DNA from: a virus
Reading direction: 5' to 3' (one strand)
Length of the DNA: 39,778 bases
IMG/VR virus record: IMGVR_UViG_3300036760_000153
Coordinates: 1-39,778 of that record
Of the stretch, positions 74 to 18,094 are shown piece by piece. Below the pieces are notes generated by a model. The model ran no database searches, had not been told where the DNA came from, and saw only the letters and a program-made list of their open reading frames with translations. Position 1 is the first letter of the stretch; each line of letters opens with the position of its first letter. A program made the position numbers and the translations under genes.

Positions 74-144
74 GGCTTCGCCTCCTTGGCCTGGGCTGCG
101 CGGTGCGCGTCGAGAGCGGCGAGGGCGTCGAGATCGGCGGTCAT
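70..144 (-). CDS. 24-residue small protein
   Basis: Seen: an ATG at 144-142 overlaps the TGA of the alanine-rich gene as ATGA, and the frame stops at 70. The product MTADLDALAALDAHRAAQAK (24 aa in all) is acidic at the front and alanine-rich, and could form one helix. The 12 bases before the start and the first codons (GACGCC, ATG, ACCGCC) are the same as at the start of the upstream 243-residue gene. This suggests either a translation signal or an old local duplication. No function can be assigned. It could be a translational spacer. Confidence 0.4.
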   Translation of the reverse strand: MTADLDALAALDAHRAAQAKEAKP

Positions 145-872
145 GGCGTCACCCGTATCGGTGTGCGTGGCTCGCGACCAGCGAGGTACTCTAGCAAGCG
201 GCGCGATTGGGCGGCCCTCGCGGCGGCCCACGCGGCGTCCCACGCGGCACTCGCGTCCCTCGCGGCGGCGTGCGCGGCGTCCCTCGCGGCACTCGCGGCA
301 CTCGCGGCGTCCCTCGCGGCCCTCGCGGCCCACGCGGCGGCCCACGCGGCGGCCCACGCGGCGTCCCTCGCGGCACTCGCGTCCCTCGCGGCGGCCCACG
401 CGGCGTCCCTCGCGGCACTCGCGGCACTCGCGGCACTCGCGGCGGCCCCGATCTCGCCACGCGCATACGCACGCGCCGCCACGATCGCATCTCGTGGCCG
501 CGAATCAGTCGGGTACTGGCGCTCGTACAGCGGCAGCACCATCTCGGCGCAGTCAGCCGCGAAAAGTCGCGCCGTGCGATCATTCCAGGGGTCGATGCGG
601 CGCAGCAACCGCGCCTCGCGCACCACTACCTTGTTGTCGTTGATGACTCGCTCGCCGCCGCGCACCTCAACCTCGAAGATCGCCTCACCGAGCCAGTGGA
701 TCAGATCCTGGCGACGGCAGATGTGGTAGCCGTTCGAGCACGGGATCAGATCCTCGACGATCTTCGGCATCCACTTACCCGGTTGCTTGCCCCGTGGCAG
801 ATACCACTTACCGTCGCCACCATGGCATGTGTCACCATTGACGGCGAGCACCTTGTAGTACTTGGCGGTCAT
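141..872 (-). CDS. DUF7666/Imm5-like protein with alanine-rich helical repeat tail
   Basis: A 243-residue protein. Residues 1-90 (start MTAKYYKVLAVNG, with PCSNGYHICR and a WLGEAIFEVEVRGGE stretch) resemble N-terminal domains found in phage and bacterial DUF7666 proteins. Residues about 95-145 contain a cysteine near VLPLYERQYP and the RPRDAIVAARAYARGEI pattern typical of the Imm5 immunity-protein family. From about residue 145 to 220 it is a run of AARDAAWAAA-type units, expected to form long helices. The ATG at 872 overlaps the upstream stop as ATGA, and the gene is fourth from last in the leftward operon. From family resemblance it may be a protective or immunity-type factor. The exact role is unknown, and the repeat number may vary between relatives. 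Confidence 0.75.
   Translation of the reverse strand: MTAKYYKVLAVNGDTCHGGDGKWYLPRGKQPGKWMPKIVEDLIPCSNGYHICRRQDLIHWLGEAIFEVEVRGGERVINDNKVVVREARLLRRIDPWNDRTARLFAADCAEMVLPLYERQYPTDSRPRDAIVAARAYARGEIGAAASAASAASAARDAAWAAARDASAARDAAWAAAWAAAWAARAARDAASAASAARDAAHAAARDASAAWDAAWAAARAAQSRRLLEYLAGREPRTPIRVTP
193..455 (-). repeat. GC-rich short tandem repeats inside the alanine-rich gene
   Basis: Units such as GCGGCCCACGCG, GCGTCCCTCGCG and GCACTCGCG recur in register with codons over about 260 bp. On the minus strand they encode AARDAAW, AARDAS and AAWAAA units. The period is a mixture of 9, 12 and 15 bp, so the array is degenerate rather than a clean satellite. Other frames stay open here only because of the repeats. 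Confidence 0.85.
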
Positions 873-1225: not shown

Positions 1226-1899
1226 CGCGTACCCACCCGTGGCTTCGCGTAGATTCGGACACCGGGGTAGGTCTGCGTCCCCTTGACCGCGCGCGCCATC
1301 TGGCCGATCGCCGTCTCGTTCGGCTGCAGGAACGCCAGCGGTGCGCTGCCGCTGGCGCATGCAGCGACCAGTGCCTTCAGATCCGTCACCTCAAACGTCC
1401 ATGTCTCGCCAATCGAGATGCCGGCCACCTTCACCGGCGGCGGCAGCACCGGCGCCGCCGATGCAACCGCGCTCTCTTCGCGCACCGCATCGGCAAGCTC
1501 GCGCTCGCCCGCGGCCTCGAGCTCGCGCGCTTCCTTCTCTGCTTTCTCGCGCGCCTCGCGTGCGAGAGCCTCGGCGAGCGCTGCGACTTCTCTGGCCTTG
1601 CGCTGCTGCTCTGCAGCGTAGGCACCGACCTTGCTCTTGAAGAGCGTCTCCGCTTGGACGAGCGGGTCCTCGATCTTCTTGCGCTGTGCGATCGTGACCT
1701 TGCGCGCCTCGATCTGCGCGCGGTCGATCGGATCGAACGTGCGTCCGATCTCGGCCCGCAGCGCCTTGATGTCGCGCAGACGGTCGGCGACGAGCTCGCA
1801 GTGCTCTTGCGAGGCGACGATGAAGATCGTCGCTTCCTCGGGCCAACTGAGCGCGCGGGTTTCGAGTTCGGCGAGCGGGATGAGAGCGGCGTCGCTCAT
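1222..1899 (-). CDS. coiled-coil phage protein of the recombination module
   Basis: A 225-residue protein whose ATG at 1899 overlaps the Acb2-like gene stop (ATGA). Residues about 20-150 form a long charged helical region (QIEARKVTIAQRKKIEDPL, then A/E/K/R-rich repeats). The end has the pattern typical of a widespread phage family found beside recombination genes: ETWTFEVTD, a proline-rich or aliphatic stretch ending FLQPNETAIGQMARAVKG, then YPGVRIY. Family members are usually annotated only as coil-containing proteins. The role is not established here. Operon position suggests a helper of the upstream nuclease, or of an annealing protein that is not seen in this window. Confidence 0.75.
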   Translation of the reverse strand: MSDAALIPLAELETRALSWPEEATIFIVASQEHCELVADRLRDIKALRAEIGRTFDPIDRAQIEARKVTIAQRKKIEDPLVQAETLFKSKVGAYAAEQQRKAREVAALAEALAREAREKAEKEARELEAAGERELADAVREESAVASAAPVLPPPVKVAGISIGETWTFEVTDLKALVAACASGSAPLAFLQPNETAIGQMARAVKGTQTYPGVRIYAKPRVGTR

Positions 1900-4155: not shown

Positions 4156-4170
4156 CTTTCGCACCTCCAA

Positions 4171-4196
4171 AGTATCAGCGCACCCTATACCTGTAA
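4171..4196. promoter_or_regulatory. operator copy 1 (before the gp3-like gene)
   Basis: Plus strand reads AGTATCAGC, GC, ACCC, TATACCTGTAA. This is nearly identical to 11262-11288 and similar to the reverse complement of 4245-4266. The half-sites AGTATCAG and TATACCT form an imperfect dyad. It lies just upstream of the GGAGG/TTG start at 4155. On the minus strand GTTACA and TACTTT are 17 bp apart, so it could overlap the leftward promoter. Predicted repressor/Cro site. Confidence 0.6.
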
Positions 4197-6216: not shown

Positions 6217-6236
6217 GCCGCGGAGCGGCAAGGAGG
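6217..6236 (+). promoter_or_regulatory. SD-proximal GC hairpin with ribosome site
   Basis: GCCGC (6217-6221), loop GGA, GCGGC (6225-6229), immediately followed by AAGGAGG (6230-6236) and ATG at 6242. Same architecture as 5847-5867 and 22977-23000. The arm order is reversed relative to 5847, so the stem rather than the primary sequence is kept. Confidence 0.55.
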
Positions 6237-6241
6237 CAAAC

Positions 6242-6457
6242 ATGGCGAAGAGAACGAGCATCGTGTTCCTGGACGGCATCGTGACGCTGAAGCGCACGAA
6301 GGGCGGCTACCGGATCGAGATTGTCGACGCCGGTGGGCTGAAACAGGCGGAGTCGCTGCGGAACGCCACGGAGGCGCTGATCCGGGACCTCTGCCCGCCG
6401 CTGCTGATCGTGAGTCAGCCGGTCAAGACGGAACGGATCGTCGGCCACGTCGCATGA
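6242..6457 (+). CDS. hypothetical protein, 71 aa
   Basis: The ATG at 6242 follows AAGGAGG at 5-base spacing. The product MAKRTSIVFLDGIVTLKRTK reads as short strands in a mixed alpha/beta fold, with a helix near ESLRNATEALIRDLCPP. No motif or family is recognised. Its stop overlaps the start of the RusA-like gene as ATGA, so the two are probably translationally coupled. Confidence 0.6.
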   Translation: MAKRTSIVFLDGIVTLKRTKGGYRIEIVDAGGLKQAESLRNATEALIRDLCPPLLIVSQPVKTERIVGHVA

Positions 6458-7005
6458 GCGAGTCGGCGGTCAGGGAGGTTCGGTTCGAGGTGCTCGGCAC
6501 GCCCGCGCCGAAAGGCAGCTCACGCGCCATCCTGATCGCCGGCTTAGCCCGCAACGTCCCCAGCGGCTCCGACGTGAACCGCAAGCGCCTGCGCTCGTGG
6601 GACGTCAACGTGCGAGAGGCCGCGCTCGCCGCCGTCGGCGGACCGCCGCCGTTCATCGGGGTCGCGCTCGACGTCTTTCTGCGCTTCGCCCTGCGGCGGC
6701 CGGCGGGGCACTACGGCAAACGTGGGCTGCGGCCATCCGCGGCCCTGTATCCGACGACCAAGCCCGACTGCGACAAAATTGCTAGGGCGACTCTCGATTC
6801 ACTCACCGGCATCGTGTTCGACGATGACAGCCGGATCGTGCGGCTCCTGGTCTACAAGCTCTACGCTTCTCCGGTATGGCCGGAAGGCGCCACTATCTCG
6901 GTAACAGCGCTGGAGCAGCCTGACGATCGACGAGATATGCAAGCTGCGCCTGCGCCCGATCGTCTCGGTGCAGCGGAACCTCATCCGTCCGCGCCTGGAA
7001 GATGA
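6454..7005 (+). CDS. rusA: RusA-type Holliday junction resolvase
   Basis: A 183-residue protein. The family signature is clear: FEVLGTPAPKGSSRAI at the N terminus (the RusA GxPxPKxR-like strand), KPDCDK at 103-108, D115 in ATLDSLTG, and FDDDSR at 122-127. These give the acidic cluster that binds metal in RusA. Family role: cuts four-way junctions in replicating or recombining phage DNA before packaging. RusA proteins are usually 120-150 aa. The extra 30-residue polar tail here is encoded in the stretch that also codes, on the other strand, for the end of the 6893-7183 gene. It overlaps the upstream gene by ATGA and ends the rightward early operon. Confidence 0.92.
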   Translation: MSESAVREVRFEVLGTPAPKGSSRAILIAGLARNVPSGSDVNRKRLRSWDVNVREAALAAVGGPPPFIGVALDVFLRFALRRPAGHYGKRGLRPSAALYPTTKPDCDKIARATLDSLTGIVFDDDSRIVRLLVYKLYASPVWPEGATISVTALEQPDDRRDMQAAPAPDRLGAAEPHPSAPGR

Positions 7006-7183
7006 TCGTCACCGCGTAGCGGTCGCTCCGATCTGACGCGACCTTCACGCTCGGAATCACGAAAGCGGAGAGCTCTTCCGCCATGAAGATGTCGCGCAGC
7101 AGGTCGAGCATGCGGACCTGGCCCTGCACCCTGCACCGAAAGAACGTCTCGGCGTCGGTGTAGTCGCTTTTTTTGATCTGCAT
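6893..7183 (-). CDS. hypothetical protein, 96 aa, overlaps rusA tail-to-tail
   Basis: The ATG at 7183 overlaps the integrase stop (TAATG), with GAGGAG 7 bases before it. The product has a helical first half (VQGQVRMLDLLRDIFMAEE) and a strand-rich middle (AFVIPSVKVASDRSDRYAVTIIF). Its last 37 codons lie opposite the end of rusA, giving an unusual convergent overlap of 113 bp. No family is recognised. Coupling to the recombinase suggests joint expression. Confidence 0.6.
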   Translation of the reverse strand: MQIKKSDYTDAETFFRCRVQGQVRMLDLLRDIFMAEELSAFVIPSVKVASDRSDRYAVTIIFQARTDEVPLHRDDRAQAQLAYLVDRQAAPALLPR

Positions 7184-7782
7184 TACCAGCTCCTCTTCGT
7201 CGTGGCAGCGATCACTTCGGTCGCGCCGATCGAGGTGAGGTAGCGCTGTGTGGTATCGAGCCGCCGATGTCCTAGCGCCAGCATGATTTCGACCATCCCC
7301 ACGCCCTCGTCGTAGAGTTCCCGCGCGAACGTGTGCCGCAGCGCGTGCGCGTGCACCCGGCGCGAGAGGCCGGATTTCTTCCCGAGCCGCGGCACGAGCG
7401 CGCGGATGTACGTGGCCGAGAGAGGTTGGCCCGCGCGAGTTGGGAAGAGCAGCCCGGGAGAGACCCCGCGGAACTCAAGCCACGCCGCGAGCAGTCCCGC
7501 CGCCTTCGGGTCGAGTCCGACTTCGCGCGGGGGGGCGCCTCGCCGGAATCCCTTCGGCCGCTCGACGCGCAGCACGACGCCGCCAGGTACGTTTCGCACG
7601 TCGGAGAGGGAGAGGCCAAGCGCCTCCGAGCAGCGGAGTCCGGCGCGGTAGTACGTCGCCAGCAGCGCGCGGTTTCGGGCGCCGATCCATCCCTCGCCGG
7701 CCGCCTCGAGCAGCCGCGCCGCATCGGCCGCGTCGACCGCGTGGGCTGGAAACTTCCGGCCTCGATTCTGACCGCCGGTCAC
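7183..7782 (-). CDS. int: tyrosine recombinase, catalytic domain only
   Basis: A 199-residue protein with the full catalytic set in order: R50 (AGLRCSEALGL), K77 (ERPKG), H146-A-L-R149 (HALRHTFA), H172 (LALGHRRLDTTQ) and Y181 (QRYLTS). The catalytic domain begins almost at the first residue. The arm-type and core-binding (SAM-like) N-terminal domains of phage integrases (usually 320-400 aa total) are missing. The start is GTG at 7782, overlapping the previous stop as GTGA. The gene upstream (7779-8096) does not look like a core-binding domain split off by frameshift. It could integrate the phage, resolve multimers or invert a segment. No attachment core was found nearby. Confidence 0.9.
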   Translation of the reverse strand: MTGGQNRGRKFPAHAVDAADAARLLEAAGEGWIGARNRALLATYYRAGLRCSEALGLSLSDVRNVPGGVVLRVERPKGFRRGAPPREVGLDPKAAGLLAAWLEFRGVSPGLLFPTRAGQPLSATYIRALVPRLGKKSGLSRRVHAHALRHTFARELYDEGVGMVEIMLALGHRRLDTTQRYLTSIGATEVIAATTKRSW

Positions 7783-8096
7783 GTTCGCTCGAGATCGGCT
7801 TCGGCGTCGCGCTCGGCCTCGGTTGCTTCATGCGTCGCCTGGTCGCCATGTATGCGCTCAAAAGCTGCGTCTTCGGCCCGATTGCGCGCGAGCTCCGCGG
7901 CGTGCTCTTCGGCCGATGCTGCGATCGCGCCGCGTACCAGCGCGCGGCAGACCCTGATTCCGCCGATTCTGAGCGTGTCTCGCATGTACCGAGCCACGCG
8001 GTCGATTGACTCCGCGCCTCGATCCGGCCCGAGCCAGCCGAGAATCATCGCGCGCGCGCTCGGAGTTGCGTACTGCGCTTCGGTGTAGGTTCTCAT
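7779..8096 (-). CDS. hypothetical helical protein, 105 aa
   Basis: The ATG at 8096 has GGAGG 1-2 bases upstream within GGGCGGAGGC and follows the 8097-8192 structured leader. The N-terminal half has two tryptophan/glycine turns (ILGWLGPDRG) and basic helices. The C-terminal third is a charged helix rich in A, E, R and D (AASAEEHAAELARNRAED). It overlaps the recombinase start by GTGA, so it may be a partner or directionality factor, but no DNA-binding motif is evident. Confidence 0.6.
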   Translation of the reverse strand: MRTYTEAQYATPSARAMILGWLGPDRGAESIDRVARYMRDTLRIGGIRVCRALVRGAIAASAEEHAAELARNRAEDAAFERIHGDQATHEATEAERDAEADLERT

Positions 8097-8192
8097 GCCT
8101 CCGCCCTTTCAGCGCCATCGGGCGCCTCTACCTCGAAAGCCCCGATCGCTGGCATCCCAGGAGATCGGGGCGAGGCTCGCGCGCGCTGCGGA
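8097..8192 (-). promoter_or_regulatory. structured intergenic leader: long plus short hairpin
   Basis: On the minus strand a long hairpin comes first: arms GCCCCGATC at 8139-8147 and GATCGGGGC at 8163-8171, with an inner CTGG/CCAG pair. About 13 nt later a short one follows: GCGCC 8112-8116 and GGCGC 8121-8125, loop of 4. Then GAAAGGG and the start at 8096. The arrangement is the same as in the leaders at 8941-9077 and 10902-11000. The long stem is followed by only three U residues, so a rho-independent terminator is doubtful. Confidence 0.6.
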
Positions 8193-8348
8193 TCACTTCG
8201 CCCGCTTCTCCGCCTCCTGCACCGCGTCGTCGATCACGAGCCGCCTACGGCTGCGCCAGGCTGCGCGAGCGGACCGATGCCGCAGTCGCGCGTCTATCCT
8301 GTCGAGTAGCGCGACGATCGCCGCGCGTAGCCTGCTGCGCGCGCTCAC
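8193..8348 (-). CDS. basic small protein, 51 aa
   Basis: GTG at 8348 overlaps the upstream TGA as GTGA. The product (SARSRLRAAIVALLDRIDAR and onward) is strongly basic and helical, rich in R and A, with a final acidic helix (DDAVQEAEKRAK). A nucleic-acid-binding role is possible on charge alone. No family is recognised. Evidence is the overlap, the codon-length fit between neighbours and the colinear operon. Confidence 0.5.
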   Translation of the reverse strand: MSARSRLRAAIVALLDRIDARLRHRSARAAWRSRRRLVIDDAVQEAEKRAK

Positions 8349-8683
8349 AGCCACCTCACCGGGATCACCGGATAGCTCGGCAGAATCGGCGCGTTCCGCA
8401 GCACTTCCCGAATAACGTCCATCCGCCGCGCACACGGCCAGAACCCCGAGAGCTCAACACCCTGCACCGGCCAGAAGTCCGCCGGGAGCTCGTCGTGATC
8501 CTCGAGAACCGCCACCTCTCCCGCCTCCTTGTCGCCCGAAGCCCGCACCGCGAAAGTCAGCCGACCCGTGGCGCCGACCGTCGGCCCCCAGATTCTCAGC
8601 GCCTCTCCGTCCAGAGCTATTGCGAGCGATTCCAGGTCACGCCGTACGTGTCCACTCCAAGGCAGCTTTACCGCCCGCATCAT
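8345..8683 (-). CDS. hypothetical protein, 112 aa
   Basis: ATG at 8683 is chosen because it overlaps the upstream stop as ATGA and has GGGAGG 8-10 bases before it. Two further in-frame starts lie within six bases on either side. The product is strand-rich (AIALDGEALRIWGPTVGATG, then LTFAVRASGDKEAGEVAVLE) with a cysteine-containing GFWPCARRMDVI segment and a proline-rich end. It looks like a small folded domain. No known family or active site is visible. Confidence 0.6.
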   Translation of the reverse strand: MMRAVKLPWSGHVRRDLESLAIALDGEALRIWGPTVGATGRLTFAVRASGDKEAGEVAVLEDHDELPADFWPVQGVELSGFWPCARRMDVIREVLRNAPILPSYPVIPVRWL

Positions 8684-8940
8684 CGCCACACCTCCCGACG
8701 CTCGAACGTCTCGACGGCCTCGAGCACGTCGCGCGCCTCGCCCTCGTCGGGCATCTCAAGCAGCTCCCGACCATCGGGCAGCTCGACATTTCGCAGCACC
8801 ACGCACGCGCGCAGGCTCACGCGGTACTCCGTCCCATCCACGCGGTAACGCCGAAACGCTCTCACGCCGGAAATCTGCTCCCGGTCGCGCGCGATCGGCC
8901 CAACTTCCCAGCCGATCCCCTCAAACTTCCGACGCTCCAT
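8680..8940 (-). CDS. hypothetical protein, 86 aa
   Basis: The ATG at 8940 has AAGGGG 5 bases upstream and is preceded by the structured leader 8941-9077. The product MERRKFEGIGWEVGPIARDR is a series of short strands (GTEYRVSLRACVVLRNVELPDGRE) ending in an acidic helix (EARDVLEAVETFERREV). No recognised family. Its size, leader and overlap with the next gene suggest a small regulatory or accessory phage protein. Confidence 0.6.
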   Translation of the reverse strand: MERRKFEGIGWEVGPIARDREQISGVRAFRRYRVDGTEYRVSLRACVVLRNVELPDGRELLEMPDEGEARDVLEAVETFERREVWR

Positions 8941-9077
8941 CGCATCCCCTTTCCGGGCATCTCGCCCGATTGTGCTGCGCCGCAGTGCGCAGAGAGAACC
9001 GGCCAGCCTGAAGTGAGTGCGGCACGCGCCGCGCTGGCCGGTTGACTCCGCCCGCTACCTCGCGAGCGATGCCGCTT
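8941..9077 (-). promoter_or_regulatory. structured leader, homologous to 10902-11000
   Basis: Minus-strand order: GGTAGCG, long stem with arms AACCGGCCAGC (8997-9007) and GCTGGCCGGTT (9033-9043), inner GCGGC/GCCGC pair, then AATCGGGCG, short stem CGGGC (8954-8958)/GCCCG (8964-8968), GGAAAGG and the ATG at 8940. Shared blocks with 10902-11000 are GGTAGCG, GCCGCACTC, AATCGG, ATGC and CCGGAAAGG. The stems differ in sequence but still pair. Either a conserved regulatory RNA or an attenuator. Confidence 0.65.
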
Positions 9078-9458
9078 TCAATCCCAGTGCGGCTCTCCCA
9101 ACCGCTCCGGCTTCCGACCCTCGCACCGCGCAAGGAATTCCTCGTAGTACGCGTTAGAGCTCGGGATGCTCTCACCGGCATCCGGGACGGAATCCAGCGC
9201 GAGCAGCTTCGCGAGCTCGGCTCGATCGGTCGGACTCATGCCTCGGCCCGGCTCGCCCGTGTCGTATGCTTCCCAGGTGTCTCGCGCCGTCGCCGTCTGC
9301 GGCGTCACCTGGCGATGGCCCCACGTCCTCCGCGCCGGCGGCGACGTGATCTTCAGCCAGCCGTAAGCGGTCCCGATGCCGCCCGTAACGCTCCATCGCT
9401 TCCCCGAGCGCTTCTCGAGCGCGGCCTTCATGGCCTTCATCGTCTCGTTGCGATTCAT
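9078..9458 (-). CDS. hypothetical protein, 126 aa, 'GGxGTAxGWLxI' domain
   Basis: The ATG at 9458 overlaps the upstream stop (ATGA). The first 20 residues are a basic helix (MNRNETMKAMKAALEKRSGK). Then RWSVTGGIGTAYGWLKITSP resembles a small domain seen in phage and plasmid proteins, where a glycine-rich turn leads to a W-x-x-I strand, followed by a short segment with a conserved GMSPTDRAELAKLLAL helix. The end is polar. Such proteins are often neighbours of DUF3560 and DUF7007 genes, as here. Function unknown. Confidence 0.65.
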   Translation of the reverse strand: MNRNETMKAMKAALEKRSGKRWSVTGGIGTAYGWLKITSPPARRTWGHRQVTPQTATARDTWEAYDTGEPGRGMSPTDRAELAKLLALDSVPDAGESIPSSNAYYEEFLARCEGRKPERLGEPHWD

Positions 9459-9889
9459 CGCTCCACCTCCCGCAGTGCGCAGCCGTCCGGCGCATCCGCA
9501 TGCGTCCGCGGCAGCTCGCCCACGAGCGAGCCCGGCCCGATCGGCTCGTCACTCCCGGCGCGCAGAACCGCCGCGTAGACCGGATTCCGCGCTCCGAATA
9601 CTCTGACGCCGGCCTCGATCCACTCGCGGACCTTGCCGCGAGAGATGCCAAACGCCTCGGCGAGGTCGGGATAGATCCACAGCGGGAACGCCATGTAGGC
9701 GTCTTCCTCGTACCACCCCGGCCCGCTCATGCTGGCGGCCGCAGCGCGCGCGATCTCCGGCATGCCGAGTTCGAGCTCCGCCGGCAGGTAAACGCCGCCG
9801 TGACTCGATGTTTCGACGTGCCAGGCTCCGCGCGTGAGATCCCGCGCGCTTTGAACGTGCCCCCAGGGGCTTGTGATCGGCTTGCTCAT
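9455..9889 (-). CDS. DUF7007-like protein, 144 aa
   Basis: ATG at 9889, overlapping the DUF3560-like stop (ATGA). Residues 5-75 fit the DUF7007 pattern as I know it: PWGHVQSARDLTRGAWHVET, then SSHGGVYLPAELE and GWYEEDAYMAFPLWIYPDL. After that a short HTH-like stretch (AEAFGISRGKVREWIEAG) and a polar tail follow. DUF7007 is common on plasmids and phages beside DUF3560, with no known activity. The HTH-like part hints at DNA contact but is weak. Confidence 0.7.
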   Translation of the reverse strand: MSKPITSPWGHVQSARDLTRGAWHVETSSHGGVYLPAELELGMPEIARAAAASMSGPGWYEEDAYMAFPLWIYPDLAEAFGISRGKVREWIEAGVRVFGARNPVYAAVLRAGSDEPIGPGSLVGELPRTHADAPDGCALREVER

Positions 9890-10671
9890 ACTCCTCCCTC
9901 CTCGGCGACGCTCGCAAGCGCCGCAACTTCGGCCGGCAACCTCTCGGAGCGCCCGCTCCAAGATCCGCCGCCCCAACAAAACCCCGCGCCCTTCAATGCG
10001 TCGATCACGGCGCGCTCCGGCTTCTCGGCGAACGTCACGACCACGTACTCGCTCGTCGGAGTCGCGCGCGCGACCTGCACCCCGCCGGCCGCCTCGGCCG
10101 CCTTCGCGCGAGTCTCGCGCGCCCGGATAGCCTCGATCCGCTTCCGGTCCGCCCCGATCCGGCCGCCCAGGTTCGCCAACTGGAACTTCTCGAACGGCGC
10201 CCGAACGAAGCTCAACCCGATCGCGGCCACGCTCACGCGCAGCTTCTTGAGGTCGAGCCCGAGCTCCGCCAGGCCGGCCGCGTCGCCCTTCCGGTACAGC
10301 CGATTGACCAGCACCATACGCGCCCGCGTCGCCTCGAGCTCTCGGATTCGAGCCTCGAGCGATGCGATGGCGTCGTGGTCGTCGCTGTAGATGCTCCGCT
10401 CGAGCGCGTGTTCCAGGTTGCCGGCAACGCTCTCGTGGTGCTCGGCCATGTCGGCAGACTCGAAGCCGCGACGCATGCCGCTGTGGATGCGCTCCTGATC
10501 TCGCCGCGCGTGCTTCTCGCTGTGATGGCCGACTAGGATCGGCTGGCCGAGCGGGATTCCGTCCGCGATCCGCTTCGCCGCACCGAAAGCGGCCGCCGCC
10601 TTCCGTTCGCGACCCTCCGCCCACTCCCGGCGCTTCTCGATCCGCGCCTCGATTCGCTCTCGTCTCGTCAT
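9886..10671 (-). CDS. DUF3560-like protein, 261 aa
   Basis: ATG at 10671 overlaps the upstream stop. Residues 1-70 (RRERIEARIEKRREWAEGRE, then AAKRIADGIPLGQPILVGHH and a SEKHARRDQERI basic helix) are the DUF3560 hallmark. The central region is a long coiled coil (SLEARIRELEATRARM). The C terminus (SEYVVVTFAEKPERAVIDAL, then KGAGFCWGGGSW) matches the small terminal domain often attached to DUF3560. The family is typical of plasmids and temperate phages. Its function is not established. It is the largest protein of the accessory operon. Confidence 0.8.
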   Translation of the reverse strand: MTRRERIEARIEKRREWAEGRERKAAAAFGAAKRIADGIPLGQPILVGHHSEKHARRDQERIHSGMRRGFESADMAEHHESVAGNLEHALERSIYSDDHDAIASLEARIRELEATRARMVLVNRLYRKGDAAGLAELGLDLKKLRVSVAAIGLSFVRAPFEKFQLANLGGRIGADRKRIEAIRARETRAKAAEAAGGVQVARATPTSEYVVVTFAEKPERAVIDALKGAGFCWGGGSWSGRSERLPAEVAALASVAEEGGV

Positions 10672-10901
10672 CGCGACACCCCTGCAATCGCAGCAACAAC
10701 CAGCGTTCCGATTCGAGTAGTCGTTTCCCACTCGATGACGGTCACGTCAGGCTTGCCGCTGGTTTCGGCTCGCGCAGTGGCGCGAGCTAACACGGCGTGC
10801 TGGGCTGCGGCGGCGGTAGGGTAGAACTCGCCGACTGCGATGCCGGTCTCTTCGACGTACCACCCTTCGCTTTGTTCGCTGATTTCGACGCGCACGCTCA
10901 T
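10668..10901 (-). CDS. hypothetical protein, 77 aa
   Basis: The ATG at 10901 follows GGGAG and is preceded by the structured leader 10902-11000. The product MSVRVEISEQSEGWYVEETG has a beta-hairpin-like front, a helix in PTAAAAQHAVLARATAR, and a hydrophobic end (RIGTLVVAAIAG). It could be a small single-domain protein. No family is recognised. It overlaps the DUF3560-like gene by 4 bases. Confidence 0.6.
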   Translation of the reverse strand: MSVRVEISEQSEGWYVEETGIAVGEFYPTAAAAQHAVLARATARAETSGKPDVTVIEWETTTRIGTLVVAAIAGVSR

Positions 10902-11000
10902 CGCTCCCAACCTTTCCGGCGCATCCGCGCCGATTCTCCGCTCGTAAGTGAGCAGACCGGAACCGCACTCCCGCATGCGAGTGCGGCTCAAGTCTGCGCG
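10902..11000 (-). promoter_or_regulatory. structured leader, homologous to 8941-9077
   Basis: Minus-strand order: GGTAGCG, outer stem GCAGAC (10952-10957)/GTCTGC (10992-10997), inner stem CCGCACTC (10963-10970)/GAGTGCGG (10979-10986), AATCGG, short stem CGGCGC (10917-10922)/GCGCCG (10927-10932), GGAAAGG, GGGAG and the ATG at 10901. The short stem keeps pairing although its bases differ from the 8954-8968 stem. A further 7-bp hairpin (GCGCGCT/AGCGCGC, 10996-11014) covers the end of the upstream gene. Confidence 0.65.
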
Positions 11001-11219
11001 CTACCCAAGCGCGCTCATCAAGTCGAGCTGATCCCGACGCGCCATCGGCTCGCCCGTCTCCAACTCATGCGCCACCGCGCGCAGCTCCGCCGCTAGCGCC
11101 GCCCTCACCCCCTTCAGGTTCGCCGCGTTCGTCGGAATCCCCAACCGCTCGCAGATAGACTCGGGACTCGCTCCGACCTTCCAAAGCCTCAGGATTCTTG
11201 CCCCTGCCGGGTTCATCAT
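11001..11219 (-). CDS. small HTH-like protein, 72 aa, first gene of accessory operon
   Basis: Starts at ATG 11219 (or the adjacent ATG 11216) behind GGAGAGGGG. Residues 8-35 (ARILRLWKVGASPESICERLG, then IPTNAANLKG) read like a helix-turn-helix of the 'response to position' type found in small phage regulators. The rest is a single long helix (RAALAAELRAVAHELE). It is expressed from the promoter region that contains operator copy 3. It may regulate the accessory operon or excision. Confidence 0.6.
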   Translation of the reverse strand: MMNPAGARILRLWKVGASPESICERLGIPTNAANLKGVRAALAAELRAVAHELETGEPMARRDQLDLMSALG

Positions 11220-11261
11220 GCCCCTCTCCCTTCCCGGTCCACCTCGGACCGCAACCGTATC

Positions 11262-11288
11262 AGTATCAGCAAACCTTATACCTGTCAA
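11262..11288. promoter_or_regulatory. operator copy 3 with overlapping minus-strand promoter
   Basis: Plus strand reads AGTATCAGC, AA, ACCT, TATACCTGTCAA, matching copy 1 (4171-4196) at about 22 of 26 positions. On the minus strand it starts with a perfect TTGACA (11288-11283); 17 bp further is TACTGA preceded by TG. The -10 is uncertain. The site lies between the end of the HTH repressor gene and the first accessory gene, as expected for a repressed promoter. Confidence 0.65.
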
Positions 11289-11330
11289 CCCCCTCGCCAA
11301 TGCTCAGGATTCCATCGCTCCCGCGCCCGA

Positions 11331-11756
11331 TTATCCCCCTAACACCTCGAACTCACTCTCCTCCGCACTCTCCGCTTCAACCCTCGCCACCGCCTCAGCG
11401 ACCGCCCGCTCCGCCAGCGCCGAGCACCGCTTCCGCGTCGCGGCCTCTCGAGCTCGCCGCGCCATGATCCGCCGCTGCAACGCACTGTGCTGCGACGTCG
11501 TCGCACCAGGTAGCGCCGGACGCGCATCCAATCCAGGTACCAGATCCGTCGGGCGGCAACCCACCGCACTCGCCAGTAGCACCAGATGCGTCACGGTCGC
11601 TTCCGAGTATCGCCCCGCCCGCAAGTTCGACACAACCCGACCGCCCAAACCCGACAACGCGCACACATCCGACACCCGAAGCCCCAACTCGTCCATCATC
11701 CGCGCCAAAGGCGCCCGCGTGTCGATCCGATTCACCGCCGGCTCTGTCCCCTTCAT
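11331..11756 (-). CDS. XRE-family HTH repressor candidate, 141 aa
   Basis: Starts at ATG 11756 (ATGA overlap with the upstream gene). Residues about 15-70 form an XRE helix-turn-helix: PLARMMDELGLRVSDVCALS, then GLGGRVVSNLRAGRYSEATV, with a following helix TVTHLVLLASAVGCRPTDLV, which is the classic 'L...L.v....L' end of Cro/C1 domains. The C-terminal part is basic and helical (ALQRRIMARRAREAATRKR), with an acidic end. There is no LexA-type autocleavage motif (AG...S...K), so SOS-style induction is not visible. It is the most likely lysogeny-type repressor, and its gene ends 42 bp before operator copy 3. Confidence 0.75.
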   Translation of the reverse strand: MKGTEPAVNRIDTRAPLARMMDELGLRVSDVCALSGLGGRVVSNLRAGRYSEATVTHLVLLASAVGCRPTDLVPGLDARPALPGATTSQHSALQRRIMARRAREAATRKRCSALAERAVAEAVARVEAESAEESEFEVLGG

Positions 11757-12019
11757 CCCTCCACCTCGGCCGCCGCACGCACCGCCGCACGCTCAAGCAC
11801 CCGCTCCCGGTGACCCACCCGCAACACCTCGAGCGCAGCCGCGATCACCAGACCATTCGGCCCCAACGTCGGCGCCATCAACCGATACCGCGCCAACGCG
11901 TCGTGCATCATCGCCCAGACCACCGTCGCCACCGGCACACCCCATCCATCCGCGATCACATTCAAGTCCTCGAACTCTCCCTTCCTACACGATACCACCA
12001 CAGGTTCCGAGCGACGCAT
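11753..12019 (-). CDS. ribbon-helix-helix-like small regulator, 88 aa
   Basis: ATG at 12019 is chosen because the resulting N terminus EPVVVSCRKGEFEDLNVIAD supplies the strand expected before two helices (DLNVIADGWG, then VPVATVVWAMMHDALARYR), an RHH-like layout. A TTG at about 11961 with a stronger SD (GGAAGGGAG) would remove the strand. The rest is a helical tail. It overlaps the HTH repressor start (ATGA). It could be an auxiliary repressor or Arc-like protein. The fold call is from pattern alone. Confidence 0.5.
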   Translation of the reverse strand: MRRSEPVVVSCRKGEFEDLNVIADGWGVPVATVVWAMMHDALARYRLMAPTLGPNGLVIAAALEVLRVGHRERVLERAAVRAAAEVEG

Positions 12020-12194
12020 CGCATCCGGACCCCGACGTGCTCCAGATCCACGCTTCGCCCCTCGCGCGTTCGGTGACGACACTCCACTTCTCCTCAGGCT
12101 CTACTCCGAGCCTCTCCGAAACGAGTAGCGCATCGAGCGCAAGGAGCGAGGATCCGGCCGGGTTCGTAGCGTGAGCGATCGTCTCTTGCGCCAC
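11985..12194 (-). CDS. doubtful small ORF, 69 aa
   Basis: An open minus-strand frame from GTG 12194 to TAG 11985 gives VAQETIAHATNPAGSSLLAL and onward. The composition is plausible for a folded protein (a leucine-rich helix, then EEKWSVVTERARGEAWIWST). No strong SD is seen, and the end overlaps the 12019 start region by 35 bp in another frame. It sits just after a strong hairpin (12194-12225). It may be a real leader gene of the repressor operon or chance. Confidence 0.25.
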   Translation of the reverse strand: MAQETIAHATNPAGSSLLALDALLVSERLGVEPEEKWSVVTERARGEAWIWSTSGSGCDASLGTCGGIV

Positions 12195-15402: not shown

Positions 15403-15845
15403 TGGGGTTCAAGTCCGGGCTGCACACCGCAGGAGGCCAGGGGACGCTTGCGCATCGCCGGAAGGAGCTGCAGGAGGCCGAGCTACAGGCGACGCTCGAG
15501 GCCGCGCAGATCAACGAGGCGCAGCGGCTCGCGCAGGAATCCACGCCCGCGTGTATGCGTGAGCTCAAGCGCATGGCGACCTCGCACGCGAAGCAGATTG
15601 TGGTGTCGGAAGCCGTGCGTCTGGCGGCGATCCGTCTCTTGTTGGAAACCGCGTGGGGCAAGCCGAGCGTGCGTGAGTCGAAGGACGGCGGCACGCGGCG
15701 CGCGGGCGCAGGGGGCCGGCGCATCGTCGTGAACATCAACACGCACGGCGCCGGGGTCGGGAAGCAGGTTCGCGTGACGGCGATGGGCTCTCTTGTGGCG
15801 GCAAGTGAAGCTGCGCAGGATGCGGAGTACGAGGAGGGCTTGTGA
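15402..15845 (+). CDS. terminase small subunit-like protein
   Basis: A 147-residue protein with ATG at 15402 overlapping the previous TAA (TAATG). It is predominantly helical, with a charged coiled coil at about residues 18-50 (RKELQEAELQATLEAAQINE) and a repeat-like helical pair (ELKRMATSHAKQIVVSEAVR, then LAAIRLLLETAWGKPS). The AxxLLexawGKP ending is common in phage proteins directly before terminase large subunits. The C-terminal part is glycine-rich, then acidic. The stop overlaps the TerL GTG start, as expected for a TerS/TerL pair. The assignment is mainly positional. Confidence 0.6.
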   Translation: MGFKSGLHTAGGQGTLAHRRKELQEAELQATLEAAQINEAQRLAQESTPACMRELKRMATSHAKQIVVSEAVRLAAIRLLLETAWGKPSVRESKDGGTRRAGAGGRRIVVNINTHGAGVGKQVRVTAMGSLVAASEAAQDAEYEEGL

Positions 15846-18094
15846 CGGGAGCGCATTCCGACGCGGCCCTGGATCTCCCGTACCTGTGGACGCCGCGGGA
15901 GTACCAGTTGCCGGCGTGGCACGCGCTGCACGAGGGCTATCTGCGGACGTACCTTGTCTGGCACCGGCGCGCGGGCAAGGGCGCTTGCATGGTGAACTTC
16001 TGCGTGACGCAGGCCGCGCAGCGCGTGGGGCTGTACTGGCACGTCCTGCCGACCTACAAGCAGGGGCGGAAGATCATCTGGGACGGCATGACGAAGGAGG
16101 GTCGGAAATTCACCGACTACTTCCCGCCCGAGCTCGTGCTCCGCAGGACTGAGGCGGAGATGTCGGTTTGGATGACGAACGGGTCGCTGTATCAGGTGGT
16201 CGGAGCCGATGACGTAGACAAGCTCGTCGGTGCGAATCCGATCGGAGTCGTGCTCGACGAGTACGCGCTGATGGACTCGAGCGTGTGGAACTTCTTCCGC
16301 CCGATCCTGGCTGAAAATGGGGGCTGGGCGGTGTTCACGACGACGCCGCGGGGCCGGAATCACGCCTACGAGCTGTGGCAGCGTGCGAAGAAAAACAAGA
16401 ACTGGTTCACGCAGCTCCTGACGGTCGATGACACCGGCGCGGTGACGCCGGAGGCGATCCAGGAGGACCGCGACTCCGGCATGCCCGAGGAACTGGTCCA
16501 ACAAGAATACTGGTGCCTGCCGCCGGGGGTGCCGATCCTGACCGATCGAGGACAGGTGCCTATCGAGCAGGTGCGGACCGGGATGCGAGTGCTGACCCAC
16601 TCGGGGCGGTGGCGTTCGGTGCTCGAAACAATGGAGCACGAAACGACTGGCGGGCTCGTCGAGATCCAGACTTACGGCAACCGCCGCACGCTGCTCGTCA
16701 CGCCGGAGCATCCGGTGCGCACGCTGCAGCCGGACTCGCAGGTCTACGCCTGGCGCCCGGCGGGCGAGATCAAACGCGGCGACTGGCTGACGATGCCGCG
16801 TCCGAGAAAGGGCCGCCCGATCGTTCCTCCGCATCTGGCGAAGCTGGCAGCTTGGTACGTGGCGGAAGGCTCCTGCTCCAAAACAGCGGTGCAGTTCTCA
16901 CTCGGGTCGACGGAAGGGGACTACGCCGACGAGATCGAAGCCTGTGCCCTCCTGTACGGGGCGAGTAGCGCGCGCGCGACCAGCGACCTGAATTGCTTGA
17001 CGGTCCAGGTCCGTTCCGCCGCGCTTTCGGATTCTCTCGCGAACGCCTGCGGCTCTGGTGCCGCTAGCAAGCATCTTCCGTGGGAGTGGGTCGCTGGGCA
17101 CGAGGCTCTGTTCTTGGACCGGCTCATTCGAGGTGATGGCTGCGAGATCAACGGCGGATGGATGTACACGACGATCAGCGAGTCCCTGGCCTACGACGTG
17201 CAAATGCTCGCGTCGGCGTGTGGGTACGGCTCTGGGATCAGCGAGCGGCGTGGCGGCCATGCCGTGATCCAAGGCCGGAATATCGTGAGTAGAGACAGTT
17301 TCTGCGTGCGGATCTCGACAACTCCATCGTCGAAGATTTTGCCGGCGAAGAATGCGATTGGCGTGCGAGTCCGTTCGGTCGCGCGGCTGCCCTACGCTGG
17401 GCGTGTCCACAACCTGCGCGTGCAGTACGAAGAGAGCTTTGTTGCGGCGGGTCGCGTCGTCCACAATTGCTCGTGGGACGCGCCGCTCGTCGGCTCGTAC
17501 TACGGCGATCAGGTCAACGCGGCGACGAAGGCGGGACGGATCACGAAGGTGCCGTGGGAGCCGACGGCGCTTGTGGAGACCGCCTGGGATCTCGGCGTGG
17601 GCGACGCGACCGCGATCCTATTCTGCCAGCAGATCGGCAAAGAGGTCCGGATCATCGACTACTACGCGAGCTTTGGGAAAGGGCTCGACCACTACGCGAA
17701 GGTGCTGCAGGAGAAGCCATACGCTTACAAGCACGCGCTCCTGCCGCATGACGCGGAGCAGCGGTCGATGGAGTCGGGGAAGACGCGGGTGGCGATCCTG
17801 CAGTCATTGGGCATGCGCTGCCGCGTGCTGCCGCGCATGCCGATCGAGGACGGGATCGCGGCGGTGCGAATGCTCTGGCCGCGGCTCTGGATCGACGAGG
17901 AGAAGTGCGAGGTGTTCATCCGCGCCGCCCGCGAGTATCGCAAGGAGTTCGACGTGAAGTCGGAGACGTATGGGGACCATCCGAGGCACGACTGGACATC
18001 AAATCCGATGGACGCGCTGCGTTATTTGGCACTCGGCTTGCGACCGGCGCAGCCCAAGCGCGAGAGTCTCGCGCCGCGGCTCGCTATCGTGTAG
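15842..18094 (+). CDS. terL: terminase large subunit interrupted by an intein
   Basis: The 750-residue precursor starts at GTG 15842 (GTGA overlap). Extein 1, residues 1-224: ATPase with Walker A-like HRRAGKGA (41-48), Walker B VVLDE (136-140) and coupling motif FTTTPRGRNH. Intein residues 225-542. Extein 2, residues 543-750: nuclease domain with ETAWDLGVGDATAIL, LLPHDAEQR and HDWTSNPMDALRYL, giving the RNase H-like acidic residues. After splicing the product would be 432 aa, a normal TerL length. It pumps and cuts phage DNA during packaging at the portal. The next genes are a small helical protein and the portal. Confidence 0.93.
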   Translation: MTGAHSDAALDLPYLWTPREYQLPAWHALHEGYLRTYLVWHRRAGKGACMVNFCVTQAAQRVGLYWHVLPTYKQGRKIIWDGMTKEGRKFTDYFPPELVLRRTEAEMSVWMTNGSLYQVVGADDVDKLVGANPIGVVLDEYALMDSSVWNFFRPILAENGGWAVFTTTPRGRNHAYELWQRAKKNKNWFTQLLTVDDTGAVTPEAIQEDRDSGMPEELVQQEYWCLPPGVPILTDRGQVPIEQVRTGMRVLTHSGRWRSVLETMEHETTGGLVEIQTYGNRRTLLVTPEHPVRTLQPDSQVYAWRPAGEIKRGDWLTMPRPRKGRPIVPPHLAKLAAWYVAEGSCSKTAVQFSLGSTEGDYADEIEACALLYGASSARATSDLNCLTVQVRSAALSDSLANACGSGAASKHLPWEWVAGHEALFLDRLIRGDGCEINGGWMYTTISESLAYDVQMLASACGYGSGISERRGGHAVIQGRNIVSRDSFCVRISTTPSSKILPAKNAIGVRVRSVARLPYAGRVHNLRVQYEESFVAAGRVVHNCSWDAPLVGSYYGDQVNAATKAGRITKVPWEPTALVETAWDLGVGDATAILFCQQIGKEVRIIDYYASFGKGLDHYAKVLQEKPYAYKHALLPHDAEQRSMESGKTRVAILQSLGMRCRVLPRMPIEDGIAAVRMLWPRLWIDEEKCEVFIRAAREYRKEFDVKSETYGDHPRHDWTSNPMDALRYLALGLRPAQPKRESLAPRLAIV
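16514..17467 (+). mobile_element. intein with LAGLIDADG-type endonuclease in terL
   Basis: 318 residues, from Cys at 16514 (CLPPGVPILTDRGQVPIEQV, block A) to HN at 17462-17467, followed by Cys+1 (17468). Block B is TLLVTPEHPVRTLQ, with its His. The end block is GRVHNLRVQYEESFVAAGRV then VHN. In between, LAKLAAWYVAEGS and FLDRLIRGDG correspond to the two LAGLIDADG helices, with acidic residues E and D. All splicing residues are present, so it is predicted active. Insertion falls just after the ATPase domain, in the conserved QEYW-C-SWDAPLVG segment. Confidence 0.92.

Follow-up and report, generated by a model that had tools for sequence, protein, structure and literature searches.

A small family of structured leaders before genes of a phage leftward operon

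Two leaders of one leftward phage operon, here termed A and B, are members of a real, small family of structured leaders whose role is most likely conventional. Their sequence family is undescribed, and the kind of device is familiar. The operon lies in a 39.8 kb virus record, the whole of which is called the window below, and which encodes podovirus-type head genes (terminase, portal, scaffold, and major head protein), all on the plus strand. Our best explanation, to which we assign about even confidence, is that A/B-type leaders are hairpin-plus-Shine-Dalgarno cassettes predicted to tune mRNA processing, stability, and translation start.

Genomic setting

The leftward operon extends from ~11300 to 7000 and contains small unknown genes, DUF3560 and DUF7007 genes, and a phage integrase (7183–7782). 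Leaders A and B were located on the minus strand as the initial annotation had placed them, 5' of genes 10668–10901 and 8680–8940, respectively, and coordinates for all features are in Table 1. The candidate promoter of the operon (−35 at 11288–11283) was not called by a consensus scan. A 24-base sequence, ACAGGTATA[A/G]GGT[T/G][T/C]GCTGATACT, precedes both leftward operons of the window (11262–11285 and 4171–4194, minus strand) and is probably a shared promoter/operator. DNA comparisons found no relatives of the operon within the phage collection, and a tRNA search found none.

Two other loci in the window had unusual content. The gene at 141–872 (minus strand) contains imperfect tandem repeats encoding Ala-rich units (GCC GCG AGT / GAC GCC GCG TGG). 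The terminase large subunit (15842–18094, plus strand) carries a ~317-residue insert (residues 226–542) that starts with CLPPGVPILTDRG, ends with VHN before C, and is missing from contigs L007, L008, and other relatives. This insert looks like an intein.

Table 1 Coordinates of leaders, helices, hairpins, and neighboring genes in the window.
Feature	Coordinates	Strand	Description or support
Candidate promoter/operator of the leftward operon (TTGACA ... TGATACT)	11262..11288	minus	Seen in sequence
P3-type hairpin (CGGTCCG AGG TGGACCG) before the first gene's Shine-Dalgarno	11235..11251	minus	p 0.005
Leader A, between genes 11001–11219 and 10668–10901	10902..11005	minus	Begins at upstream gene's TAG stop; sequence, related to B; fold z −4.2
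Leader A helix P1	10952..10997	minus	P1a 10997–10991 with 10958–10952, P1b 10989–10979 with 10969–10959; minimum-energy fold
Leader A alternative hairpin P2 (CTGCTC ACTTAC GAGCGG)	10938..10955	minus	CTGC common to P1a 3' strand
Leader A hairpin P3 (CGGCGC GGAT GCGCCG)	10917..10932	minus	Adjoins Shine-Dalgarno; shuffle p 0.026
Shine-Dalgarno GAAAGG of gene 10668–10901	10911..10916	minus	Sequence
Gene 3' of leader A	10668..10901	minus	77 aa, without family match
DUF3560 protein gene, same operon	9886..10671	minus	Pfam PF12083, E 2.3e-30
P3-type hairpin inside DUF3560 gene end, before DUF7007 Shine-Dalgarno	9905..9924	minus	p 0.028
DUF7007 protein gene	9455..9889	minus	Pfam PF22653, E 4.3e-17
Leader B, between genes 9078–9458 and 8680–8940	8941..9063	minus	Internal GTAGCG copy is not the upstream stop codon; sequence, related to A; fold z −3.7
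Leader B helix P1	8989..9051	minus	P1a 9051–9046 with 8994–8989, P1b 9043–9033 with 9007–8997; minimum-energy fold
Leader B alternative hairpin P2 (CTGCGC ACTGCG GCGCAG)	8975..8992	minus	
Leader B hairpin P3 (CGGGC GAGAT GCCCG)	8954..8968	minus	Shuffle p 0.032
Shine-Dalgarno GAAAGG of gene 8680–8940	8948..8953	minus	Sequence
Gene 3' of leader B	8680..8940	minus	86 aa, without family match
Leader C	8097..8192	minus	Long stem ~8176–8131, P3 8125–8112, GAAAGG 8110–8105; layout shared with A and B

Leader architecture

Leaders A and B and a leader of the related contig L007, folded side by side, gave one common layout. In all three, the 5' strand GTAGCG[C/G]GC[A/G]G opens helix P1a, next to which lies P1b (~10–11 bp), whose sequence is wholly different among the three leaders and which has a variable apex beyond it. 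The 3' strand of P1a is CTGC[G/T]CAC, and the same bases can pair onward as a hairpin, P2. A spacer of 5–6 bases separates the P2 region from hairpin P3, in which the outer CGG/CCG is constant and the inner pairs vary. The Shine-Dalgarno follows directly 3' of P3, as GAAAGG in the window and AGGAGG in L007.

The 5'-strand GTAG of A and of L007 includes the codon at which the upstream gene stops. The sequence blocks listed in the initial annotation occur in the same order in A and B, and the first of them, GGTAGCG, is present in A at 11005–10999, where it holds the upstream TAG stop and so begins beyond the range originally given for that leader. In B, the upstream gene ends at a TGA (9078–9080) and the GTAGCG copy is internal to the leader, suggesting on sequence grounds that the cassette was duplicated along with its stop codon.

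In each of the three leaders, P1a and P2 exclude one another, and P2 is fully paired. Predictions for the intact RNA favored P1a over P2 in B (10.2 kcal/mol) and L007 (7.2 kcal/mol) and gave a tie in A. Predicted folds of 3' fragments contained both P2 and P3, and blocking the first 16 nt freed P2. Apart from one forced state of B, every state computed for the three leaders contained P3, with the Shine-Dalgarno outside that hairpin. The exclusive helices, the one switch-like feature of the leaders, extend the initial annotation, as does the presence of the hairpin-plus-Shine-Dalgarno unit at other starts, including that of the promoter-proximal gene.

Such exclusive pairing could be read as a ribosome-responsive attenuator, in which a ribosome finishing translation of the upstream gene masks the P1a 5' strand and P2 forms, while P1a forms when no ribosome is there. 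The exclusivity, the full pairing of P2, the release of P2 when the first 16 nt are blocked, and the position of the P1a 5' strand directly after the TAG stop in A and L007 are consistent with this. However, there is no T run or terminator 3' of the leaders, P3 and the Shine-Dalgarno lie outside the switch, the upstream stop of B is too far 5' for a ribosome to cover P1a, and A has no energy preference between P1a and P2. We consider this attenuator the least probable of the readings weighed here; a switch operated by a terminating ribosome is possible for A and L007 and less so for B. No terminator-like site, meaning a G+C-rich stem then a T run, was found on the minus strand of 7000–12100, and classical transcription attenuation is therefore unlikely. 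Classical attenuators have mutually exclusive helices, and antitermination leaders such as HK022 put have paired stems. The leaders share paired stems with these systems and exclusive helices with attenuators, but lack a terminator or Rfam match and are present in several internal copies rather than at one promoter-proximal site. The attenuator function first suggested for the leaders has little support, given that no stem is followed by a T run and the terminal hairpin excludes the Shine-Dalgarno.

Relatedness of the leaders and conservation of pairing

The local Smith-Waterman score of A against B was 56, compared with 22.5 ± 3.9 in dinucleotide shuffles, none of which scored as high (0/1000). 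The likeness was strong in the 3' halves (34 vs 17.6 ± 3.2 in shuffles, 0/1000) and marginal in the 5' halves alone (45/1000). Both leaders folded better than shuffles (Table 1). Leader C, which had been described as having the same order of long stem, short stem, and GAAAGG, does have that order, and its likeness to A and B consists of this order alone: sequence comparison detected no relation to A or B (144/1000 and 743/1000 shuffles, respectively), and its fold was unremarkable (z −1.6). The proposal of a duplicated structured leader family was supported for A and B, with a third copy in the related phage L007, and C showed no demonstrable homology.

The initial annotation also claimed that the stems of A and B use different bases that still pair. 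Evidence of such changes lies in the outer P1, P2, and P3 and does not extend along the whole long stem; P1b does not align among A, B, and L007, and P1 is therefore based on layout and outer pairs. The small stem pairs CGGCGC with GCGCCG in A and CGGGC with GCCCG in B, and these are real two-sided changes. Block GCCGCACTC, by comparison, was not an aligned pairing block, as in A it builds the long helix's 5' arm and in B it supplies the loop and 3' arm of an inner hairpin. Its differing places in the two folds provide no evidence of compensatory change.

MAFFT alignments of the leaders broke the structure, and a hand-fitted alignment, biased towards structure, was used for the covariance model. 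Across the 3' domains of A, B, and L007 in this hand-fitted alignment, all 36 of 36 P2 and P3 cells were standard pairs, and sliding the register reduced pairing to 26–51%. Four of the 12 P2/P3 pairs changed on both sides, which 7/500 shuffles matched. With three sequences and a fitted alignment, this covariation of P2 and P3 is suggestive, not proof.

Alternatively, the leaders could lack any regulatory role and stem from an intergenic segment that was duplicated long ago in a G+C-rich genome, their hairpins being by-products of composition. Only A and B are clearly related, few homologues were found, and the folds of leader C and the L007 leader hardly surpass those of shuffles (z −1.3 for the latter), all of which fit this explanation. 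High G+C also eases strong stems and weighs against the cassette reading. Nevertheless, P2 and P3 pairing survives two-sided changes, and P3 keeps a fixed position with respect to the Shine-Dalgarno, which is seen again at other starts and in a second phage. We regard a functionless duplication as unlikely, albeit as the least improbable of the alternatives to the cassette.

Relatives in other phages

Searches with the repressor-like gene and terminase proteins found L007, whose terminase is 63% identical in the best segment and whose upstream repressor-like gene is 53% identical to that of the window. A genome scan with terminase gave distant matches only. Protein searches with the genes after A and B found no relatives, and the DUF3560 protein had one, on L002. 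The L007 leader (256–372) lies in a syntenic leftward operon and precedes a DUF7007 gene, whereas leader B in the window precedes an unrelated gene. The L007 homologue of the window's DUF7007 protein, encoded by the gene after this homologous leader, is 49% identical. By plain sequence, the L007 leader was marginally similar to A (37/1000 shuffles) and B (51/1000), with 8/1000 for the 3' halves of B and L007.

The initial annotation called for a covariance model built from A and B and searched against phage genomes, and this model did yield a further match. L007:261–305 led the held-out matches across 866 kb with 27.8 bits, corresponding to E 0.0035 in that search and E 0.00025 in 61 kb. A match in L031 reached a nearly equal 27.2 bits in the same 866 kb search, and for L007 context consequently weighs as much as score. 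The L031 match was doubtful and was rejected, with P2 unpaired and no start codon close 3'. Scanning viral contigs with a DNA pattern of the A and B 3' end gave four matches, and the two inspected (L003 and L006) were chance-like. L029, the only match to the L007-type pattern besides L007 itself, was a chance match in a coding region. None of 58 other DUF7007 contigs had such a hairpin at two or more starts, indicating that the feature does not travel with DUF7007.

L002 is a distant phage contig with a DUF3560 gene and its own repeated leaders. In two successive leaders the long hairpin is nearly identical, while the short hairpin differs in sequence yet pairs and is followed by ATAGGAGATGA. 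This gives an independent case in which a short hairpin persists despite sequence change. Between its accessory-operon genes, L002 has three copies of a hairpin core, GCGCACATCGCGC (468–560, 1519–1590, and 1912–1985); after two of these come a variable short hairpin and then AGGAG.

Hairpins at gene starts

P3 hairpins of 5–8 bp adjoin the Shine-Dalgarno at five starts in the window operon and three in L007, where two were found in addition to that of the leader (starts 1388 and 608). Shuffles served as the reference for 17 leftward-operon starts of the window and L007 that carry a Shine-Dalgarno-like motif, and for 13 late starts. P3 was present at p ≤ 0.05 in 6/17 leftward-operon starts (binomial p 1.2e-4), with the hairpin offset by 0 to −2 bases from the Shine-Dalgarno in these six. 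Among rightward late starts, 2/13 had P3 at this level (binomial p 0.14), and the direct comparison of early and late enrichment was not significant (Fisher p 0.21). P3 of leader C had a shuffle p of 0.075. Starts at overlapping gene junctions of the leftward operon were mostly without P3, and none was present in the second leftward operon (gene at 4161), although its promoter-like sequence is similar. A P3-like hairpin, GCCGCGGAGCGGC, adjoins AAGGAGG on the opposite strand (6223–6242, plus strand; shuffle p 0.02), so the unit is not limited to the leftward operon.

At the first gene of the window operon, P3 lies a few bases 3' of the predicted transcription start, given the promoter position read from sequence. 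The putative promoter of the first gene in L007 has its −35 at 1461–1456. A palindrome identified by eye, CTAGGCATAGCCTAG (a central mismatch-free inverted repeat; 1439–1461, minus strand), fills the spacer of this putative early promoter and is probably a repressor operator.

Comparison with known systems

Rfam 15 gave 0 matches at gathering score in the window and one sub-threshold microRNA match on the other strand. Integron attC sites were set aside after inspection by eye revealed no GTTRRRY-type ends.

T7 early mRNA has intercistronic RNase III sites, which are long imperfect helices between early genes of one operon. The leaders are alike in having long intercistronic helices; those of A and B are ~17–18 bp and tied to P2 and P3, and their cleavage is putative. 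The processing-site role proposed at the outset is a reasonable one for these long helices.

Stem-loops at the 5' end beside ribosome sites are reported to stabilize mRNA (PMC2254391, PMC3997798). The first genes here and in L007 resemble the T7 gene 10 leader and ompA in having a stable short hairpin near the predicted 5' end and a strong ribosome site (PMC2254391, PMC3997798). A leader of the T7 gene 10 type would have such a hairpin at or near a transcript 5' end and close to the Shine-Dalgarno; here the hairpin adjoins the Shine-Dalgarno, and the transcript 5' ends are putative, placed from sequence. T7 gene 10 and ompA differ in being primary-transcript leaders with measured stabilization, whereas most window copies are intercistronic and predicted.

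SAS elements of cluster K mycobacteriophages are start-associated and mostly outside structural genes, and about half of the sites are extended by a longer inverted repeat as ESAS (Pope 2011, PMC3203893; PMC12699233). Their function was called unverified in both the 2011 and 2025 papers (PMC3203893; PMC12699233). Like the leaders, SAS/ESAS are repeated just 5' of mostly non-structural starts and before unrelated genes, have an extended form, and have inverted-repeat sequences that differ among relatives. SAS is a fixed 13-mer, GGGATAGGAGCCC, whereas P3 of the window ends before the Shine-Dalgarno and varies in sequence; the 13-mer had no match in the window within 2 mismatches and 8 within 3, vs 11.9 expected. 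ESAS consist of 17 bp inverted repeats, imperfect and closely spaced, that lie immediately 5' of SAS, and while A and B carry long inverted repeats 5' of the start element, they have no SAS and no common P1b consensus. Judged by sequence features, the window leaders are an analogue of SAS/ESAS and not a member.

Factor binding is also left open for SAS/ESAS, the nearest described architecture. The leaders may likewise be RNA (or DNA) binding sites for one phage or host protein that represses, activates, or antiterminates the operon, as they are repeated in one operon before unrelated genes and conserve the outer CGG/CCG of P3 and CTGC[G/T]CAC. The P3 interior and loop vary freely, though, clear sequence sharing is limited to A and B, and no known Rfam RNA family matches. 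We judge a protein-binding role rather improbable, and somewhat more so than a functionless duplication.

Proposed function

For the cassette, we propose by analogy with the T7 gene 10 and ompA leaders that P3 would act as a 5' boundary hairpin, stopping upstream RNA from masking the ribosome site and shielding an mRNA 5' end against decay. At the first gene of both phages, P3 would lie ~5 nt from the likely primary transcript start, as placed by promoter-like sequence. At internal genes, P1 may serve as an intercistronic processing stem, cut for example by RNase III. Cutting P1 would leave 5' ends capped by P2 and P3, with P2 replacing P1a when the P1 5' strand has been removed by cutting or is masked. 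The predicted outcome is gene-by-gene, translation-uncoupled expression inside one operon.

A further-reaching version holds that the leaders form a new phage RNA family in which every intercistronic member has exclusive P1a and P2 helices whose switching after cleavage or ribosome passage sets the next gene's expression separately, and which spreads from gene to gene by duplication with a fossil stop codon. We find this doubtful, ranking it below the protein-binding role and above the attenuator.

Implications

Phage accessory operons contain many small genes whose relative dosage must be set without separate promoters. A portable cassette consisting of a processing stem, a boundary hairpin, and a ribosome site would, if true, account for the way in which newly acquired genes are connected to such operons. 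The like layout in L007, in L002, and, according to the literature, in cluster K mycobacteriophages suggests repeated origin, and the window leaders are further examples for testing ideas on the function of SAS/ESAS.
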